From: Desulfuromonas sp. AOP6
GTDB lineage: Bacteria; Desulfobacterota; Desulfuromonadia; Desulfuromonadales; SZUA-540
Assembly (NCBI RefSeq): GCF_009731355.2
Contig: NZ_AP022810.1
Location: forward strand, 2,694,001 to 2,758,000
Length of the DNA stretch: 64,000 nt
Direction: 5' to 3'
Under the pieces are notes generated by a model. The model worked only from the letters and a program-made list of their open reading frames with translations. It was not told where the DNA came from and did not search any database. Positions 2,962 through 49,029 of this stretch are shown here, one piece after another. The stretch's first letter is position 1, and every line of letters starts with the position of its first letter. Both the position numbers and the translations under genes were made by a program.

Positions 2962-3648
2962 CTAGCCACAGGGTATCGGTTCCCCCTGCAGAAAGGCCGC
3001 CATCCGTTCGGGTTCCTGCAGAAGGGTCCAGACAGCCACAGTCAACTTGACGCTGCGGCTGTCCAGATTCAGCCCGGCGAGGGCGGCGCCCAGGCCGCGG
3101 AAAGTGGCATCCATGAGGGTTTTCTGGAAAAGGTTGATCAGGACGGTCCTTTCTTCGCCCAGCGCCTTGAAGGCAATGGCCTCCCGGCAGTCTTCCGCAT
3201 TGGCGGAGGTGATAGAGCGGCAGATCAGCGGACGCACCGGATAAATCGCACAGGCGCCCTGGTCGGTCAAAAACGCACAGGATTGTCGCAGCAGAACGCG
3301 GTCATCATCATCCAGCCAGAGAATGCGGGGGTAGAGGGATTCGAGGCGAGCGATAATTTTGGCGACCTCCTCCTCGCCCATCGACTCCTTCAAATGAGTA
3401 ATGATCGCGGCGGCCTCAGGCAGCAGGACAGCGACGTTGACGGCACAACAGGTTCCGCACCCGGCTGTGCAGGCGATATGCTTCTGTTCGACAGGATCCA
3501 TATGCCTGGCCAAGGTATCCTCTGCCAGCCCATAGAGTTGACTTACGCTATGCCAGCAATCTTTAAAATTTTTCGCACCGCTCAAAAGATCGCGGGCCCT
3601 CCTTTCTATCGACTGTTCGTACCCCTTGAGATCAAAAGCATCAGACAT
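2962..3648 (-). CDS. YkgJ-family cysteine-cluster protein
   Basis: A 228-residue protein with the two-part cysteine pattern of the YkgJ / CxxCxxCC family: CTAGCGTCC in the first half and CAFLTDQGACAIYPVRPLIC in the second half. These are thought to bind zinc or an Fe-S cluster, but no biochemical role is firmly known. The ATG at 3648 is chosen over the TTG at 3654 because GGGAG sits six bases upstream. It is convergent with the DsrE-like gene and only 14 bp from its stop codon. Confidence 0.8.
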   Translation of the reverse strand: MSDAFDLKGYEQSIERRARDLLSGAKNFKDCWHSVSQLYGLAEDTLARHMDPVEQKHIACTAGCGTCCAVNVAVLLPEAAAIITHLKESMGEEEVAKIIARLESLYPRILWLDDDDRVLLRQSCAFLTDQGACAIYPVRPLICRSITSANAEDCREAIAFKALGEERTVLINLFQKTLMDATFRGLGAALAGLNLDSRSVKLTVAVWTLLQEPERMAAFLQGEPIPCG

Positions 3649-3830
3649 CGACAACTCCCTGGGAGAGAAGAAACTAAAGCCCTATTTTCAATCCTAACGG
3701 AACAGAGCTCTTTCACCAGGGCCAAAAGGCATTTTTCTCCAAATCCTGAGGATTTTCTTTCCGGACTTGCCAAACCGGGGAAGAATGGCAAAATGTCTCT
3801 TCAGGCGATAAACAATGAGGAGAAAACCCC

Positions 3831-4013
3831 ATGAAGCTGGAAATTGCCTTCGAATGTCCACAATGCCAAAAAAGCGTTGCCCAAAACCTTAACGACTACG
3901 CTCCCGGCACACGCCGACTCTGTCCATCCTGTGGCACGGATACGATTCTGACCCCGGACGGCCTTCAGTCTTTTCGCGCCAGCCTGGAATCCTTCTGTCG
4001 ACCGCCGCACTGA
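3831..4013 (+). CDS. Zinc-ribbon miniprotein
   Basis: Sixty residues beginning MKLEIAFECPQC and containing two CPxC knuckles (CPQC and CPSC) 22 residues apart, enough for a single zinc site. The second knuckle is followed by GTDTILTPDGLQ and a short helix. GAGGAG lies just before the ATG. Small proteins like this are widespread in the Geobacter group and are usually annotated as hypothetical. No partner gene is evident: it is convergent with the Mrp gene and separated from it by the terminator at 4040-4069. Confidence 0.7.
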   Translation: MKLEIAFECPQCQKSVAQNLNDYAPGTRRLCPSCGTDTILTPDGLQSFRASLESFCRPPH

Positions 4014-16999: not shown

Positions 17000-17074
17000 G
17001 TTGTTCCAGTGCAGCTCAAAGAGCGGCGGTCTTGTCGGGTAAGGAGAGGCCATTGCTGGCCTCCCCTCCCCTAA

Positions 17075-17108
17075 GAACCGTACGTGCGAGTTTCCCCGCA
17101 TACGGCTC
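17075..17108 (-). ncRNA. Group II intron domain V (catalytic hairpin)
   Basis: On the minus strand the 34 bases begin GAGCCGTATGCGGGG and end CTCGCACGTACGGTTC, with a GAAA-type tetraloop in the middle, an AGC catalytic triad in the lower stem and the two-base bulge on the 3' side. Stem pairing is complete, so the ribozyme core looks active. Domain VI follows at 17034-17071. Confidence 0.93.
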
Positions 17109-17127
17109 AAGCCTTTACAAGCCCGGT

Positions 17128-18807
17128 CTAGGACCGAACCGGCTTCCTCACCGTCAATCCGGCAGCGTGTAGCTGCCTATGGCAGGTGGGGTGCAACACA
17201 ACCAGGTTGGAGAGGTTGTCACTGCCCCCATCAACACAGCGGATCAGATGATGGATATCCCAATCTGACTCCTGCGTGATGAGATGATGACAAACCAAAC
17301 AGCGCTTATCCTGCTCCTTCCAGAGTCCGTAGAGTTTCCGCCGTATCACAGTTGAACTCTTCCAGAATTGCTCAAGGCGCTTCTCGAAGTACTTTTCAAA
17401 CTGCGGATCGTACAGGTTCGCTTCGGCCTGGATTTTGGTGTGTCGCTTGATGGGCGTGTCACTGGCATAGACGAGTGAAAGTTTCTCGCCTCCCGATGTG
17501 GCACTCTGAAAAACCCAGCTCCGGTTACCCACTTTCTTAAAGTACTTGTCTTTAATCCAGCGTTTTCGGCGGTTTAAGTGTCGCCGTCGGCACCATTGCC
17601 AGAGCAGTTTCCAGACGCGGTAGTCCACGTAATTGTATGTCGCCTTGGCGACCACATGCCGGTGATAATTGGCCCATCCTCTGAGCAGAGGATTAAGCTG
17701 CATAATCAGCCTTTCTGTGGGCACGGTCGGATTCCGTTTTACTACGTCCCGCACCTTGACCAGAAAGTTCCGCAAATTGTCCCGACTTGGCTTGATTAGC
17801 AGTTTGTCGTTGTACTTGCGGATGTTCTGGCCGAGGAAGTCGAAACCCTCGCAGATATGCGTCACCACCGTTTTTTCCGGTGAGAGTTGCAGACCGCGCT
17901 CGGCCATGAAGGCCTCGACAATCGGCTTGACCTCGTTTTCCAGCAGCTCTTTCGAGATCCCGGTAATCACAAAGTCGTCTGCGTAACGCACGTAGTTGAC
18001 CTTGGTCTTGTAGCTTTTCTTGGTGTTTTTGCTCCCGAAATGTTCTTCGAGCACACCCTCCAGGCCATCAAGAGCCAGATTGGCCAACGCCGGTGAGACG
18101 TTCCCCCCTTGAGGGGTCCCGGCCTCTGTCGGGTTAAGGCGGTTGGACTCCATGTAACCCGCCTTCAGCCATTTCCTGAGAATCCGCTTGTCCATAGGGA
18201 CATGGGTCAGCAGCCAGTCATGACTGATGCTGTCGAAGCACCCTTTAATGTCGCACTCCAGGACCCACTCGGCCGAGTTTTTGCGACTGAGAATTACAAA
18301 ACATTGCTCAATCGCATCGGCCGTCGACCGTTGTGGGCGGAAGCCATAGCTGTTGCGGTCTGCCGTAGTCTCCGAGACCGGTTCCAGGACCAGCAGATAT
18401 AACGCCTGCATGGCTCTGTCGAGCATCGTCGGTATCCCCAGCGGGCGGCGCTTGCCGTTTGCTTTGGGAATGTAGACCCGGCGCAGCGGTTTGGGTCGAT
18501 ACCCATTGCGCCTCAACCGATCTATGGCCTTCCATTTGGAGTCAGGAGTACTCCACAACTCCCCATCTACCCCGGGCGTTTTCTTGCCCCGGTTTTCGGT
18601 GACTCGCCTGACCGCCAATGCCCTGGCAGCAAACGAGTGGACCAGAAGACGCTGTAGCTTTTGAACCCGTCTCAATTGGCCCTCTTTGGTCGCCTGCGCG
18701 ATCCTGACCTGTAGCCCCCTCACCTTCCGTTGGACCAGACGCCAGTCGATGGCATGCCAGTTGTCGGGAAAGTGGGAGGACGCAGGCCCTTGTTCGTCAT
18801 TGCTCAT
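17128..18807 (-). CDS. ltrA: Group II intron-encoded reverse transcriptase/maturase/HNH endonuclease
   Basis: The 559-residue protein is intact and has the full set of intron-encoded domains: RT palm and fingers (about residues 70-320) with [17 protein letters not shown], the RT core FVRYADDF-like box (here YVRYADDF near residue 273) and [10 protein letters not shown]; maturase domain X (about 340-430, with LRGWANYHR); and a C-terminal HNH nuclease (CLVCHHL ... [12 protein letters not shown] ... [10 protein letters not shown]). It assists splicing and mobility of its host intron. The ATG at 18807 is chosen because GGAGGACAGCAAG precedes it, in preference to the upstream in-frame start at 18858. 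Confidence 0.95.
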
Positions 18808-18863
18808 CTTGCTGTCCTCCTTGATGTTGGAACACCCATCTGAGGACAAAAGACGCACTACTC

Positions 18864-18900
18864 CCCTGACGGGGAAAAGTGTTTCTTTTCCCCGTCAGGG
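18864..18900 (-). other. Long hairpin upstream of the maturase gene (intron domain IV or III)
   Basis: A perfect 16-bp stem (CCCTGACGGGGAAAAG and its complement) with a five-base loop, about 60 bases before the maturase start codon. Domain IVa of group II introns, which binds the maturase and covers its start region, lies in this position; that identity is inferred. Confidence 0.55.
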
Positions 18901-19195
18901 CGCTCTGATTTGGATCGGCTATCCGATCCTTTGCTTAGGGGGTTTTACACGCCATTACGCGTATAAAGACCAGCCGGAAGTCTGCACCCTCTCGGGTAGA
19001 GCAAATGCTCCTATCCCAGTCATTACAACCGGGCCTTCGCTTTTTCCGGCCTCCTCTACCCGCCGCTCCAACAGATCACCTTACGGCTTTCCTGCCCTGA
19101 GGGCGAAACGACGGGCTTACCGAGTTCCAATCCTTGCACACGAGTGGGTTAGGTCCTGCCTATTCACCGATGGCTGTAGTGTCGACGCCTTCCCA

Positions 19196-19201
19196 GATGT
19201 A
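19196..19201 (-). other. Exon-binding site 1 (EBS1) of the group II intron
   Basis: The minus-strand hexamer TACATC is complementary over six bases to the last six exon bases GATGTA (20100-20105). It sits in the terminal loop of a stem CCTTCC / GGAAGG, which is where EBS1 is normally displayed. This supports the 5' boundary at 20099. Confidence 0.65.
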
Positions 19202-19535
19202 AGAGGAAGGACCAGCCATGCACCTTTTGGTTGAAGCCTGTCAGCGACTTTGGCTCCGTGCGGTTGACGGTGTTTATCAGCAGTTCACGTTACGTTGACC
19301 ATACCACCCAGCCTAGCCCCTCATCCGCCTTGTCGCTGGCAGAATCTTCCTGTGACCTCACGGTGGACAAGAACTGCAAATGCAGGGGTACATTATCAGG
19401 GCGCTCAGCACCTCACCGTTACCAGTGACGCACCACCCTTAGGCTACTGTTGGCCGAACAACAGGTCTCGCTACCAATTTTTGGTGAGACAATGCAAGGA
19501 TTGGCTTACGCCGGCAGGTTGCCGCCATAAGCAAT

Positions 19536-20097: not shown

Positions 20098-21742
<1,645 letters not shown>

Positions 21743-21774: not shown

Positions 21775-22065
21775 TTACTTTTCAACGACGCCGAGGATGT
21801 CATCCTCACGCATCATCAAAAACTCTTTGCCTTCGATCTTGATTTCGGTACCGGCGTATTTGCCGAACAGAACCCGGTCGCCCACCTTGACGTCCATGCC
21901 GAGCACCTTGCCGTCCTCGGTTACCTTGCCCTTGCCGGCGGCGACAACAACGCCCTGCTGGGGCTTTTCTTTGGCCGAGTCGGGGATGATGAGTCCCCCG
22001 GCGGTCATGGTCTCTTCTTCTACTCTTTCAACAATGATACGGTCGTGCAGCGGTCTGATGTTCAT
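21775..22065 (-). CDS. groS: Co-chaperonin GroES
   Basis: A 96-residue protein with the family start [18 protein letters not shown], a mobile loop TAGGLIIPD, and [13 protein letters not shown]. It caps the GroEL cylinder. GGAGCAGAAAC precedes the ATG. It is the first gene of the heat-shock operon read from the promoter at 22178-22205, with the CIRCE operator in the leader. Confidence 0.98.
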
Positions 22066-22130: not shown

Positions 22131-22175
22131 GCGCTGTTGTTAGCACTCATTCGCGAGGAGTGCTAACAACAGCGC
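22131..22175 (-). promoter_or_regulatory. CIRCE operator (HrcA site), extended inverted repeat
   Basis: The core is the textbook CIRCE, TTAGCACTC-N9-GAGTGCTAA (22140-22166). The inverted repeat continues outward without a mismatch to 18-bp arms, GCGCTGTTGTTAGCACTC and its complement, still around the nine-base spacer. It lies at or just after the expected transcription start of groES. HrcA represses through CIRCE at normal temperature. No hrcA gene is in the window. Confidence 0.95.
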
Positions 22176-22205: not shown

Positions 22206-22342
22206 GGTCTTTCTCCGTAAAATTCTTTCCCGGCCAGAACCCTCTCGGCATTTGCCAGAACAGGGCGCCAGCCACCGCGAACCGCTTGACAGGGCCCCTG
22301 CGAATATGCTAATGAGACGCCAGATTAACTCGGACAATTTAA

Positions 22343-22420
22343 GGGCCTCCTGTGACTGGCGAAAGGTGGGATACCACCGGGGAGCAGGACATCAAGGCCC
22401 GGTCAGCCGTTCGCCTGGGC
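22343..22420 (+). promoter_or_regulatory. ZTP/ZMP (pfl) riboswitch
   Basis: The leader contains the conserved 5' half TGTGACTGGCG, a GGTGG...CCACC hairpin, CGGGGAGC, a variable linker, and the 3' half GCCGTTCGCCTGGGC. Together these match the pfl motif, which senses ZTP/ZMP (purine pathway intermediates that accumulate when 10-formyl-tetrahydrofolate is short). It lies about 65 bp before the aminotransferase start. The 3' conserved strand is also the 5' arm of the terminator at 22412-22457, so ligand binding should let transcription continue. Recognition is by eye from the consensus. Confidence 0.85.
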
Positions 22421-22457
22421 TCCCCACCATGGATTGGAGCCAGGCGTTTTTTATTTT
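22412..22457 (+). terminator. Riboswitch-controlled intrinsic terminator
   Basis: CGCCTGGGCTCC pairs with GGAGCCAGGCG (11 pairs, one bulged G) and is followed by TTTTTTATTTT. The upstream arm overlaps the conserved CGCCTGGGC of the ZTP aptamer, so the two structures exclude each other. Confidence 0.85.
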
Positions 22458-22485
22458 GTCCCCATGCAGCAAGGAGACCTCGACG

Positions 22486-23562
22486 ATGGGCAAGAAACTT
22501 TACATCCCCGGGCCGGTTGAAGTCAGTCGCGACGTCATGGAGGCCATGTGCGCTCCCATGATCGGACACCGCATGAAAGAATATGCCGTTCTGCATCAGC
22601 GGGTGACCCGGGCGCTCAAAACGCTTCTCAACACCAGCGAGCCCGTCTTTCTGAGCACCTCCAGCGCCTTCGGGGTCATGGAAGGGGCCGTTCGCAACCT
22701 GGTGCAGAAGCGCTGCGCCAACTTTGCCAACGGCGCTTTCAGCGCCAAGTGGCACGACGTCACCCGCCGCTGCGGCCTCGAAGCCGATCTCTTCAGCGCC
22801 GAGTGGGGGCAACCCATTACGCCGGAGATGGTTGATAACGCCCTCGCCAGTGGCAATTACGACGCTATGACCGTTGTTCACAACGAGACCTCCACCGGGG
22901 TCATGTCGCCTCTGGCAGAGATCGCCGAGGTCATGAAGAAATATCCCGAGGTCTCCTTTATTGTCGATACCGTCTCCTCCATGAGCGCCGTCCCTCTCGA
23001 TCTGTCCGCCCTGCAGACCGACGTCTGCCTGGCCGGCGTGCAGAAAGCCTTCGGCCTGCCGCCGGGGCTGACCGTCTTCGCTGTCTCGCGCAAGGCCCTC
23101 GACAAAGCGAAGACGACGCCTAACCGTGGCTACTACTTCGACTTCGAGGAGTTCGAGCAGAACGATCTCAAGGACAACACCCCCAGCACCCCCTGCATCA
23201 GCCTCATCTACGCCCTTGACCACCAGCTCGCCAAAATGATGACGGAAGGGCTCGACAACCGCTATGCCCGCCACCGGCAGATGGCCGAGATGACCCGCCA
23301 GTGGATCGAGGCGCAGGGATTCGGTCTCTTCGCCGCCGAAGGCTACCGCTCCCAGACCCTGACCTCCGGCCAGAACGACCAGCGCACCGATCTGGAACGG
23401 CTCAAGAAGCTGGCCAGCGAGCGGGGCTACGCCATTGACAACGGCTACGGCAAGATCAAGAACAAGACGTTCCGCATTCCGCACATGGCCGACTTCACCC
23501 CGGACGACCTGGTGGAACTCTTTACCCTGCTGGAAGAGCTATTGCCCCAGGCCCGCGCCTGA
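22486..23562 (+). CDS. Class V aminotransferase (serine/phosphoserine or serine-glyoxylate type)
   Basis: A 358-residue PLP enzyme of aminotransferase class V, beginning MGKKLYIPGPVEVS and having GHRMKEY, FLSTSSAFGVMEGAV and the PLP-lysine site AGVQKAFGLPPG (Lys about residue 187). Family members include serine-glyoxylate, alanine-glyoxylate and archaeal-type phosphoserine aminotransferases; the sequence alone does not separate them. Control by a ZTP riboswitch favours a role in serine/glycine one-carbon supply. The ATG at 22486 has AAGGAGA upstream; the longer upstream frame runs through the riboswitch and is not coding. Confidence 0.85.
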   Translation: MGKKLYIPGPVEVSRDVMEAMCAPMIGHRMKEYAVLHQRVTRALKTLLNTSEPVFLSTSSAFGVMEGAVRNLVQKRCANFANGAFSAKWHDVTRRCGLEADLFSAEWGQPITPEMVDNALASGNYDAMTVVHNETSTGVMSPLAEIAEVMKKYPEVSFIVDTVSSMSAVPLDLSALQTDVCLAGVQKAFGLPPGLTVFAVSRKALDKAKTTPNRGYYFDFEEFEQNDLKDNTPSTPCISLIYALDHQLAKMMTEGLDNRYARHRQMAEMTRQWIEAQGFGLFAAEGYRSQTLTSGQNDQRTDLERLKKLASERGYAIDNGYGKIKNKTFRIPHMADFTPDDLVELFTLLEELLPQARA

Positions 23563-23583: not shown

Positions 23584-23620
23584 ACGCCCCGGAGAACGAT
23601 ACTTCCTCCGGGGCGTTTTT
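23584..23620 (+). terminator. Intrinsic terminator after the aminotransferase gene
   Basis: Perfect 11-bp stem ACGCCCCGGAG / CTCCGGGGCGT with a ten-base loop and a T5 tail. Confidence 0.92.
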
Positions 23621-46814: not shown

Positions 46815-46985
46815 CACAGAAACGTCCAACGGTGCCCGCAAGGGTGAAAAGGGAAGAGGGGTGCAAATCCCCCGCGGACCCGCCACTGTAAGCGAAGACG
46901 AAGGGTTGACAGACCACTGGCCGCCAGGCCGGGAAGGTAACCCCGAGGATGATTCGCGAGCCAGGAGACCTGCCGACATGGACAC
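46815..46985 (+). promoter_or_regulatory. Cobalamin (AdoCbl) riboswitch
   Basis: The leader has the class I cobalamin core: GGTGCCCGCAAGGGTGAAAAGGGAA, GTGCAAATCCCCCGCGGACCC, the B12 box GCCACTG, CCGGGAAGG, and the end GAGCCAGGAGACCTGCC. It lies upstream of the btuB-like gene with a terminator (47046-47083) in between. Vitamin B12 abundance should shut off the transport operon. Confidence 0.95.
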
Positions 46986-47045
46986 ACCACATTAACCTCC
47001 CCGGGAAACAGGGAGAGTGGAGATTAGCGGCGCTTCAAATACGGG

Positions 47046-47083
47046 AAGCCCGCGCACCTATTTAGGGCTGCGCGGGCTTTTTT
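47046..47083 (+). terminator. Intrinsic terminator in the cobalamin leader
   Basis: An 11-bp stem AAGCCCGCGCA / TGCGCGGGCTT with a 12-base loop and T6 tail; the probable expression platform of the riboswitch. Confidence 0.9.
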
Positions 47084-47139
47084 GCGTTGAAGCGGTCCCC
47101 TTTTCGCCATTTTCGTTCGGGGCAAAAAGGAGAAATTCG

Positions 47140-49029
47140 ATGAAGAAACACCTGCTCGCCTGCCTGACTCTCACCCTGCTGCTTCTGCCAGCAGGCACCC
47201 CATTGGCCCAGCCGACCGAGATGGAAACGGTGGTGGTCACCGCTACCAAGGTCGAAACCGCCGCCGAAGAAGTGGCCAGTGCCATCACGGTCATCACCGC
47301 CGAAGAGATGGAGGAGAAACAGCAGCGCACAGTGCTAGACGCCCTGCGCGCCGTCCCTGCCCTCAACGTCACCCGTCGCGGGGGTCCCGGTCAGCAGACC
47401 TCCATCTTTCTGCGCGGGGCGGAGGCCCGGCACACCCTGGTGCTGATTGACGGCGTCGAAATGAACGATCCCATCGATCCGGGCCGTGCCTTTAATTTTG
47501 CCCATCTGAGCACGGACAACATCGAACGCATCGAGGTCGTGCGGGGCCCCCAGAGCACCCTCTACGGCTCCGACGCCATGGGAGGCGTCATCAACATTAT
47601 CACCCGGCGCGGCGCCGGCAAGCCATCTGGCTATGTGTCCGCCGAGGCGGGTTCTTACCGTACCTTCGAGGAGAGGGCCGGCCTGCGCGGTGGCAACGAG
47701 CTGGTCAACTTCTCCCTCGGTGTCTCCCGCCTCGACAGCGACGGCATCTCGGTGGCGGATGAGAAGGATGGTAACCGTGAGGAAGACGGTTACGAAAACA
47801 CCAGCGTCTCCACCCGCCTGGGGTTGACACCGACGGACCATCTGGAAATCGAGGCCATTGCCCGCTATCAGGACAGCCAGACGGATATCGACAACGGCGG
47901 GGGCATCGGCGCCGACGATCCAAATCACGTACTCGACTCCACAGAGATTTTCTTTCGCACTCAGGCCCGCCTACTGCTGTTTGATGAGCTCTGGGAACAG
48001 ACCCTCGGCTTTTCCAGAACCCGGCACGAACGGGACGACAACAACGACCCCGATGCGACCCACCCCCTCGATCTCCTGCGCAGCTCCTACAAAGGCAGCC
48101 TGACCAAATTCGACTGGCAGCACAACCTGTACCTGCATGAGACCAACACCCTCACCCTGGGGCTGGAAACCGAAAAGGAAAAGGGAAGAAGTTCCTATGT
48201 CTCCGATGGCGTCTGGGGACCTTACGAAGATCATCTGAGCGAACAAACTGCCCGTACCAACGGCTACTACCTGCAGGACCAGATTCGTCTGCAGGACGCT
48301 TTTTTTGTCACTCTGGGGGTCCGCCTGGACGATCACAGTCGTTTCGGCACCGAAACGACCTGGCGGACGGCGGCCGCCTATCTCTTTAAAACCAGCGGCA
48401 CCAAAATCAAGGGAACCTACGGCACTGGCTTCAAAGCCCCTTCTCTTTTCCAGCTTTATTCTTCCTACGGGGATATCAATATGAAAGCCGAAAAGAGCCA
48501 GGGTTGGGATGTCGGCATCGAACAGTCTCTTTGGGAGCAGAAACTGACCCTGGGTGCCACCTATTTCCGTAACACCTTCGACGACCTCATCGACTACGAC
48601 TATGTATCCTGGAGCTATAAAAACATCGGTGAGGCCACATCCGATGGGGTTGAGCTGACCCTGGGATTGGACCCTGTCGAGGCACTGAGCCTGCAGGCCA
48701 GCTATACCTTTACGGATACGGAGAATAAGATCACGGGCGAAGATCTCCTTCTACGCCCCCGACACAAGGCCGATCTGAGCATCGGCTATCAGTACAGCCG
48801 CAAAGGGCAGCTCAATGTCCATGGCACCTATGTGGGCAAACGGGATGATTATGGCAGCGTCACGCTTCCCAGCTACACGTTGGTCAATCTGGCCACGTCC
48901 TACGACATCACCCCCAACATTCAGGTTTTCGGCCGCATCGACAACCTCTTCGACAAGAGCTATCAGGAAGTGGCGGGCTACGGCACGCCGGGCCTTTCCG
49001 GCTATGCTGGCGTCACACTCTCTTTTTGA
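47140..49029 (+). CDS. btuB: TonB-dependent vitamin B12 receptor, BtuB-like
   Basis: A 629-residue outer-membrane protein with a signal peptide (about 1-22), a TonB box ETVVVTATK, a plug domain (about 40-150, with RRGGPGQQTSIFLRG and VVRGPQSTLYGSDAMGGVINI), and a C-terminal barrel of beta strands ending in a terminal Phe. Homology is to BtuB-type receptors; the riboswitch in front confirms a corrinoid role. AAAAGGAG precedes the ATG. Confidence 0.9.
   Translation: MKKHLLACLTLTLLLLPAGTPLAQPTEMETVVVTATKVETAAEEVASAITVITAEEMEEKQQRTVLDALRAVPALNVTRRGGPGQQTSIFLRGAEARHTLVLIDGVEMNDPIDPGRAFNFAHLSTDNIERIEVVRGPQSTLYGSDAMGGVINIITRRGAGKPSGYVSAEAGSYRTFEERAGLRGGNELVNFSLGVSRLDSDGISVADEKDGNREEDGYENTSVSTRLGLTPTDHLEIEAIARYQDSQTDIDNGGGIGADDPNHVLDSTEIFFRTQARLLLFDELWEQTLGFSRTRHERDDNNDPDATHPLDLLRSSYKGSLTKFDWQHNLYLHETNTLTLGLETEKEKGRSSYVSDGVWGPYEDHLSEQTARTNGYYLQDQIRLQDAFFVTLGVRLDDHSRFGTETTWRTAAAYLFKTSGTKIKGTYGTGFKAPSLFQLYSSYGDINMKAEKSQGWDVGIEQSLWEQKLTLGATYFRNTFDDLIDYDYVSWSYKNIGEATSDGVELTLGLDPVEALSLQASYTFTDTENKITGEDLLLRPRHKADLSIGYQYSRKGQLNVHGTYVGKRDDYGSVTLPSYTLVNLATSYDITPNIQVFGRIDNLFDKSYQEVAGYGTPGLSGYAGVTLSF

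Follow-up and report, generated by a model that had tools for sequence, protein, structure and literature searches.

A ZTP riboswitch with an overlapping terminator precedes a predicted phosphoserine aminotransferase gene in Desulfuromonas sp. AOP6

The riboswitch leader and its gene

The window analysed here is a stretch of 64,000 nucleotides (positions 2,694,001 to 2,758,000 of contig NZ_AP022810.1) from Desulfuromonas sp. AOP6, whose genome is a single contig of 3,269,909 bases. It contains a leader with a ZTP/ZMP riboswitch aptamer, a terminator that shares nucleotides with it, and an aminotransferase gene whose ATG lies at 22486. In the following list, "all 23 loci" refers to the riboswitch loci of the order Desulfuromonadales.

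22286 to 22313, + strand: promoter-like TTGACA-N16-GCTAAT, read from the sequence
22342 to 22427, + strand: ZTP/ZMP riboswitch aptamer (RF01750, 62.6 bits, cut-off 39)
22358 to 22361, + strand: pseudoknot 5′ strand GGCG (4 of 4 pairs in all 23 loci)
22405 to 22408, + strand: P3 5′ strand AGCC, from the Rfam alignment (4 of 4 pairs in the window copy)
22412 to 22420, + strand: CGCCTGGGC, 3′ strand of pseudoknot and P3 and also terminator 5′ arm, from the alignment and a pair check
22412 to 22446, + strand: terminator hairpin (-21.0 kcal/mol, local fold; core 7 of 7 pairs in all 23 loci)
22439 to 22446, + strand: GCCAGGCG, terminator 3′ arm, pairing with CGCCTGGGC
22447 to 22452, + strand: terminator T6 tract (four T invariant across the 23-row alignment)
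22473 to 22476, + strand: ribosome-binding site GGAG, read from the sequence
22486 to 23562, + strand: class V aminotransferase of 358 aa, predicted phosphoserine aminotransferase (SerC3-like; PF00266, 73.9 bits)
23585 to 23620, no strand assigned: inverted repeat CGCCCCGGAG/CTCCGGGGCG followed by T5, a possible terminator 3′ of the aminotransferase gene, read from the sequence

The Rfam scan of the whole window matched RF01750 over model positions 1-86 of 86, at 62.6 bits (gathering score 39, E = 9e-8), and this match is the only one in the whole 3.27-Mb genome. A further model, R1, whose training set included the window sequence, gave the aptamer 117.8 bits. P1 and P2 are present in the Rfam alignment of the window copy, and all four pairs of the pseudoknot and of P3 are possible. 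The original prediction had named the ZTP class and held that a low score in an Rfam pfl/ZTP scan would count against it; the full-length match above the cut-off confirms the aptamer at the level of sequence. The interval proposed there (22343-22486) starts one base late and runs one base into the start codon, its other coordinates being right. The 3′ strand of the aptamer had also been proposed to double as the 5′ arm of a terminator with T6, giving the leader the anatomy of an ON switch; computation bears out this overlap, which involves the same nucleotides in 23 of 23 loci, each with the anatomy of a transcriptional ON platform with an overlapping terminator.

The predicted fold of the leader contains the terminator alongside P1 and P2, and its stability falls short of significance (z = -1.25; of 200 shuffles, 28 were equally or more stable). 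Because the leader is no more stable than shuffles, folding energy was left out of the evidence, and thermodynamic folding was dropped as proof of the element; the stronger support for the aptamer and terminator is comparative. A consensus scan missed the riboswitch terminator and gave no promoter on the + strand, its sole promoter-like site lying on the minus strand, and a loose TTGACA-type promoter pattern is matched by 20 of the 23 riboswitch loci. In the region 3′ of the aminotransferase gene, the terminator scan returned only a minus-strand terminator (23598-23585).

Several other features were observed in the window. The repeat TTAGCACTC-N9-GAGTGCTAA (22140-22166), which we take to be CIRCE-like, lies between the riboswitch-led gene and the divergent ORFs that are presumably groES (21775-22065) and groEL (20099-21739). 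Group II intron matches (17034-19465, minus strand) lie around a reverse-transcriptase-like ORF (17128-18858), and a cobalamin riboswitch (46816-46990, 111.1 bits) precedes a TonB-dependent receptor-like ORF (47017-49029) and transporter-like ORFs, all named by eye, in an ordinary arrangement.

Identity of the aminotransferase

The window protein is a member of PF00266 (73.9 bits, cut-off 21.5), in keeping with the class V aminotransferase originally named as the target, and reaches no NCBIfam cut-off. Its best NCBIfam match is BhcA (NF045640), an aspartate-glyoxylate aminotransferase, at 196.6 of the 650 bits required, while the models of canonical SerC gave 52.8 of 253 bits (NF003764) and 46.7 of 443.6 bits (TIGR01364). 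The best solved relative is named merely a hypothetical serine aminotransferase.

Nine PF00266 matches were found in the genome at E up to 0.001, namely NifS, two cysteine-desulfurase-like proteins, a class I aminotransferase, GcvPA, GcvPB, PanP, a cystathionine-lyase relative, and the window protein. SerC is absent from these nine and the window protein is the sole candidate among them, in a survey confined to PF00266, so that aminotransferases of other families could catalyse the step. A profile search of the genome with NF003764 gave no match, although such a survey may lose weak matches because it missed the 52.8-bit match of the window protein itself. SerA is present in two copies above the cut-off.

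Among 136 genomes of the order, the SerC3-type enzyme occurs in 55, SerC in 61, neither in 20, and both in none, with SerC3-type enzymes counted at 69% or higher identity to the window enzyme (fragments in four genomes included) and SerC as NF003764 matches above the cut-off. This exclusion gives a one-sided Fisher p of 1.6e-21 with genomes treated as unrelated, and the pattern follows families; it is what would be expected of a SerC replacement, the accompanying SerA search having covered the genome of strain AOP6. Genomes with neither enzyme include the nearly complete G033 and G057 (98%), and G073 has the window-type enzyme and no SerC though its family is mostly SerC-bearing.

More distant relatives of the enzyme were collected from 24 loci (L053-L076), mostly of clostridia, and are 44-51% identical to it. 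SerA adjoins the aminotransferase in 19 of these loci, and a glycine riboswitch lies 5′ of it in five (L061, L062, L067, L073, and L074, at about 3636-3923); SerA follows in the first four, and the contig ends in L074. These neighbourhoods fit the prediction, in part of PMC9026213, of an enzyme designated SerC3, which is encoded in an operon with serA in Clostridium and resembles a characterised Synechocystis enzyme. SerC3, of which A5I0W7 is the published example, is likewise a PF00266 protein; clostridial SerC3 adjoins serA, whereas the window gene lies apart from serA behind a ZTP leader.

In many clostridial loci a DUF1015 gene was observed 3′ of SerA (Pfam-tested at L055:6002-7237, by eye in others), and the family also occurs in the genome of strain AOP6 (G000:C1:2169978-2171033). 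It is possible that this is a serine-pathway gene; our search found no literature linking TM1400, MJ0959, or DUF1015 to serine.

Considering that SerA is present twice, that no other SerC candidate was found in PF00266, and that the enzyme does not co-occur with SerC, the window gene most probably encodes the missing phosphoserine aminotransferase, a predicted SerC replacement of the SerC3 type. It is unlikely that a real riboswitch instead controls an alanine-, serine-, or aspartate-glyoxylate aminotransferase, which would turn glyoxylate into glycine and thereby feed one-carbon units through glycine cleavage. Such a role would accord with BhcA as the top family match, though under its cut-off, with the serine-glyoxylate and alanine-glyoxylate aminotransferases among the solved relatives, and with GcvPA and GcvPB in the genome, but it sits poorly with a single-contig genome that has two SerA copies and no other PF00266 candidate for SerC, with the absence of any genome among 136 holding both enzymes, and with SerA as neighbour in 19 of the 24 distant loci.

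Distribution and decay of the riboswitch

ZTP aptamers above the cut-off were detected in 23 of the 136 genomes, one per genome, by a scan whose stricter filters lose some weak matches. All 23 lie 5′ of the orthologous aminotransferase (76.8-100% identical); the nearest named relative found, a Desulfuromonadaceae MAG (L024), has an enzyme 89% identical to that of the window. In every locus, four of four pseudoknot pairs, three or four of four P3 pairs, and seven of seven terminator core pairs are possible, with nucleotides common to both structures. The aptamer, the overlapping terminator, and their conservation with the gene are established by computation. RNAalifold found no two-sided change in the terminator core among the order loci, where this core is nearly invariant, and core pairs at this level say little because they hardly vary. 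In 15 of 23 listed loci from the rest of the phylum, GACG/CGTC replaces GGCG/CGCC (judged by eye; several loci share genomes), which is a compensatory change in the pseudoknot. The aminotransferase of L021 is split into two pieces near 2533, by a frameshift or an assembly error.

Of the 55 genomes with the enzyme, 32 gave no ZTP match, and the leaders of 20 of these were examined. In 17 riboswitch-less loci Rfam gave no ZTP match even at E up to 1. Three leaders (L119, L126, and L129) retain a terminator with T5-T6 about 200 bases 5′ of the aminotransferase, the aptamer being broken or missing; L122, which is less sure, retains at least the T tract, its aligned stretch consisting of the T tract and the ribosome-binding site, with aptamer-like scraps noticed by eye. 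These four have local alignment scores of 40-67, whereas the best of 200 shuffles of two-base blocks for each leader scored 30-35. Our own model confirms L126 (53.9 bits) and L119 (51.2 bits), finds no match in L122, and scores L129 at 18.5 bits. This does not exceed the 19.6 bits of L133 and L135, in which the matched stretch is at the 3′ end of the gene and is probably a plain terminator. A weak match in L140, equalled by one of 200 shuffles, was put down to chance and rejected as a remnant, and the other 15 of the 20 relatives have no remnant by local alignment or by our own model. Among the riboswitch-bearing loci, L023 has a weak aptamer (39.9 bits) that looks half-way decayed.

The flanks retrieved upstream of the gene contain divergent groES in 18 of the 23 loci with the riboswitch and 17 of the 20 without, so that the riboswitch decayed in front of a gene that mostly kept its position. 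A tree of 45 aminotransferases was built from 20 of the 23 riboswitch-bearing enzymes (L016, L019, and L021, being partial or frameshifted, were excluded), 22 from loci lacking the riboswitch, and three outgroups. The riboswitch label changes five times on the drawn tree, which has many open forks, and because supported branches force only two changes, the tree cannot separate losses from gains; the remnants favour losses over gains in the order.

The three to four broken copies among the 20 riboswitch-less relatives examined, in which a terminator may set a low basal level behind an unresponsive aptamer, raise the question of whether the window leader is likewise a decayed or constitutive attenuator, which is quite improbable for a copy that matches 86 of 86 model positions at 62.6 bits and retains its pseudoknot and P3 pairs. 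A chance hairpin, which the unexceptional folding stability (z = -1.25) would permit, is scarcely credible in view of the E-value of 9e-8 in the window and of its recurrence at this position, ahead of the same gene, in 23 genomes.

ZTP matches were found in 25 of 395 genomes sampled across the phylum, at 45 sites, of which 43 lie outside the order of the window; two of the 43 are under the Rfam cut-off and many come from the same family. First genes at these 43 sites were named by tblastn with probes taken from the same loci. They encode another class V aminotransferase, 30-32% identical to the window enzyme and followed by SerA and PurA, at eight sites (HisZ between in six), SerA at one, serine hydroxymethyltransferase at five (one a fragment, one just 40% identical), formate-THF ligase at two, monomeric isocitrate dehydrogenase at 11 and the dimeric form at one, RnfC at eight, alanine-dehydrogenase/transhydrogenase at two, succinyl-CoA synthetase at one (named by eye), and KUP at one, three being not identified. 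Pfam confirmed one example each of monomeric IDH, Iso_dh, RnfC, KUP, AlaDh_PNT, SHMT, FTHFS, and PGDH domains. By this tally, serine synthesis is therefore a repeated ZTP target in the phylum. The isocitrate dehydrogenase, Rnf, transhydrogenase-like, and succinyl-CoA synthetase targets together account for 23 of the 43 sites, in other families:

L088, L089, L091, L093, L097, L102, L107, L109, L112, and L113: aptamer from position 1501, transcribed strand
L157 to L167 and L173 to L175: aptamer near the start, transcribed strand

Tentatively, the ZTP riboswitch in this phylum might be a wider alarm of carbon and redox state than a purine/folate switch, reaching serine synthesis through two distantly related aminotransferases as well as isocitrate dehydrogenase, Rnf, transhydrogenase-like, and succinyl-CoA synthetase genes, and might in the order of the window be old and repeatedly lost, leaving aptamer-less terminators. 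No paper joining the ZTP riboswitch and isocitrate dehydrogenase was found, and a partial literature survey encountered neither decayed ZTP copies nor ZTP riboswitches before isocitrate dehydrogenase or Rnf genes.

One-carbon logic and known systems

ZTP riboswitches are known sensors of one-carbon shortage, and PurH consumes ZMP using 10-formyl-THF. The genome encodes PurH, GcvPA, and GcvPB, and formate-THF ligase was not found in it by a search that was positive in 4 of 14 control genomes. Because no formate-THF ligase match exists in the genome, one-carbon units would come mainly from serine and glycine, with serine hydroxymethyltransferase and glycine cleavage as the likely main sources of 10-formyl-THF; producing more aminotransferase at high ZTP would therefore be sensible. 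Serine and glycine are named as one-carbon sources in Geobacteraceae in part of PMC3543383.

We assign a probability of roughly 0.8 to the reading that a transcriptional ZTP ON riboswitch controls the predicted phosphohydroxypyruvate (phosphoserine) aminotransferase gene of the serine pathway. When 10-formyl-THF runs short, PurH would stall and ZMP/ZTP would rise, and the ligand would stabilise the pseudoknot and P3, keeping CGCCTGGGC out of the terminator. With the terminator blocked, RNA polymerase would read through and more aminotransferase would be made, and serine and glycine would load THF via a presumed serine hydroxymethyltransferase and glycine cleavage. Ligand binding and the ON direction are suggested by the riboswitch class and the anatomy, and we infer the enzyme activity and the flux. 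The class alone does not fix the ON direction because predicted OFF members exist, such as the moeA tandem treated in a section of PMC9481103.

The serA gene of strain AOP6 lies far off in a serA-hisZ-purA cluster (L156:2920-7183) without an aminotransferase, whereas elsewhere in the phylum aminotransferase-serA-hisZ-purA stands behind one ZTP riboswitch. As serA is distant and there is no second ZTP match, ZTP control would be limited to a single step of the pathway. The link to serine or glycine supply made in the original prediction is supported by computation and can be sharpened to a predicted phosphoserine aminotransferase. Its view of the target as unusual holds insofar as an aminotransferase takes the place of a folate or purine gene, but serine synthesis itself has a ZTP precedent in the relevant part of PMC9481103.

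Both sensor and mechanism are already known, and the target is somewhat unusual. In architecture, in the P3/pseudoknot strand common to an intrinsic terminator, and in ON logic, the leader resembles the ZTP (pfl) class of Thermosinus carboxydivorans and Clostridium beijerinckii (as covered in parts of PMC7337938 and PMC2864571), the ON mechanism being described in the former paper. Unlike the usual members, which precede purH, fhs, pfl, glyA, or folD, the window copy precedes an aminotransferase gene. The precedent noted above is a tandem ZTP/glycine riboswitch of Bacillus and Oceanobacillus before the gene that initiates the route from 3-phosphoglycerate to serine, likewise placing serine synthesis for 10-formyl-THF under ZTP control (PMC9481103, in part). 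That system concerns the first enzyme in Bacillota and a tandem with a glycine aptamer, whereas the window has a single aptamer and the second enzyme in Desulfuromonadales. A glycine riboswitch precedes serC/serA in a Clostridium (from a portion of PMC3766115), so that the same two serine-pathway steps are under a riboswitch, but with glycine as the ligand. OFF logic has been predicted for a glycine/T-box tandem before serC-serA-serS (same part of PMC9481103), and a glyA gene behind a ZTP riboswitch responds to folate stress in Cupriavidus (PMC10882993, in part). A ZTP riboswitch with a SerC3-type gene in Desulfuromonadales was not met in our partial literature survey.

The finding connects the ZTP alarm with serine synthesis by way of a replacement enzyme, and it adds evidence from regulation for an enzyme function known until now only as a prediction. 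Among the relatives, the broken copies form a natural series in which riboswitch death can be followed, the aptamer going first and the terminator last. To judge from the ZTP riboswitches in front of isocitrate dehydrogenase and Rnf genes, the alarm seems in some lineages to extend to central metabolism. For Desulfuromonas sp. AOP6, in which no formate-THF ligase is recognisable, such a switch would account for the control of one-carbon supply.
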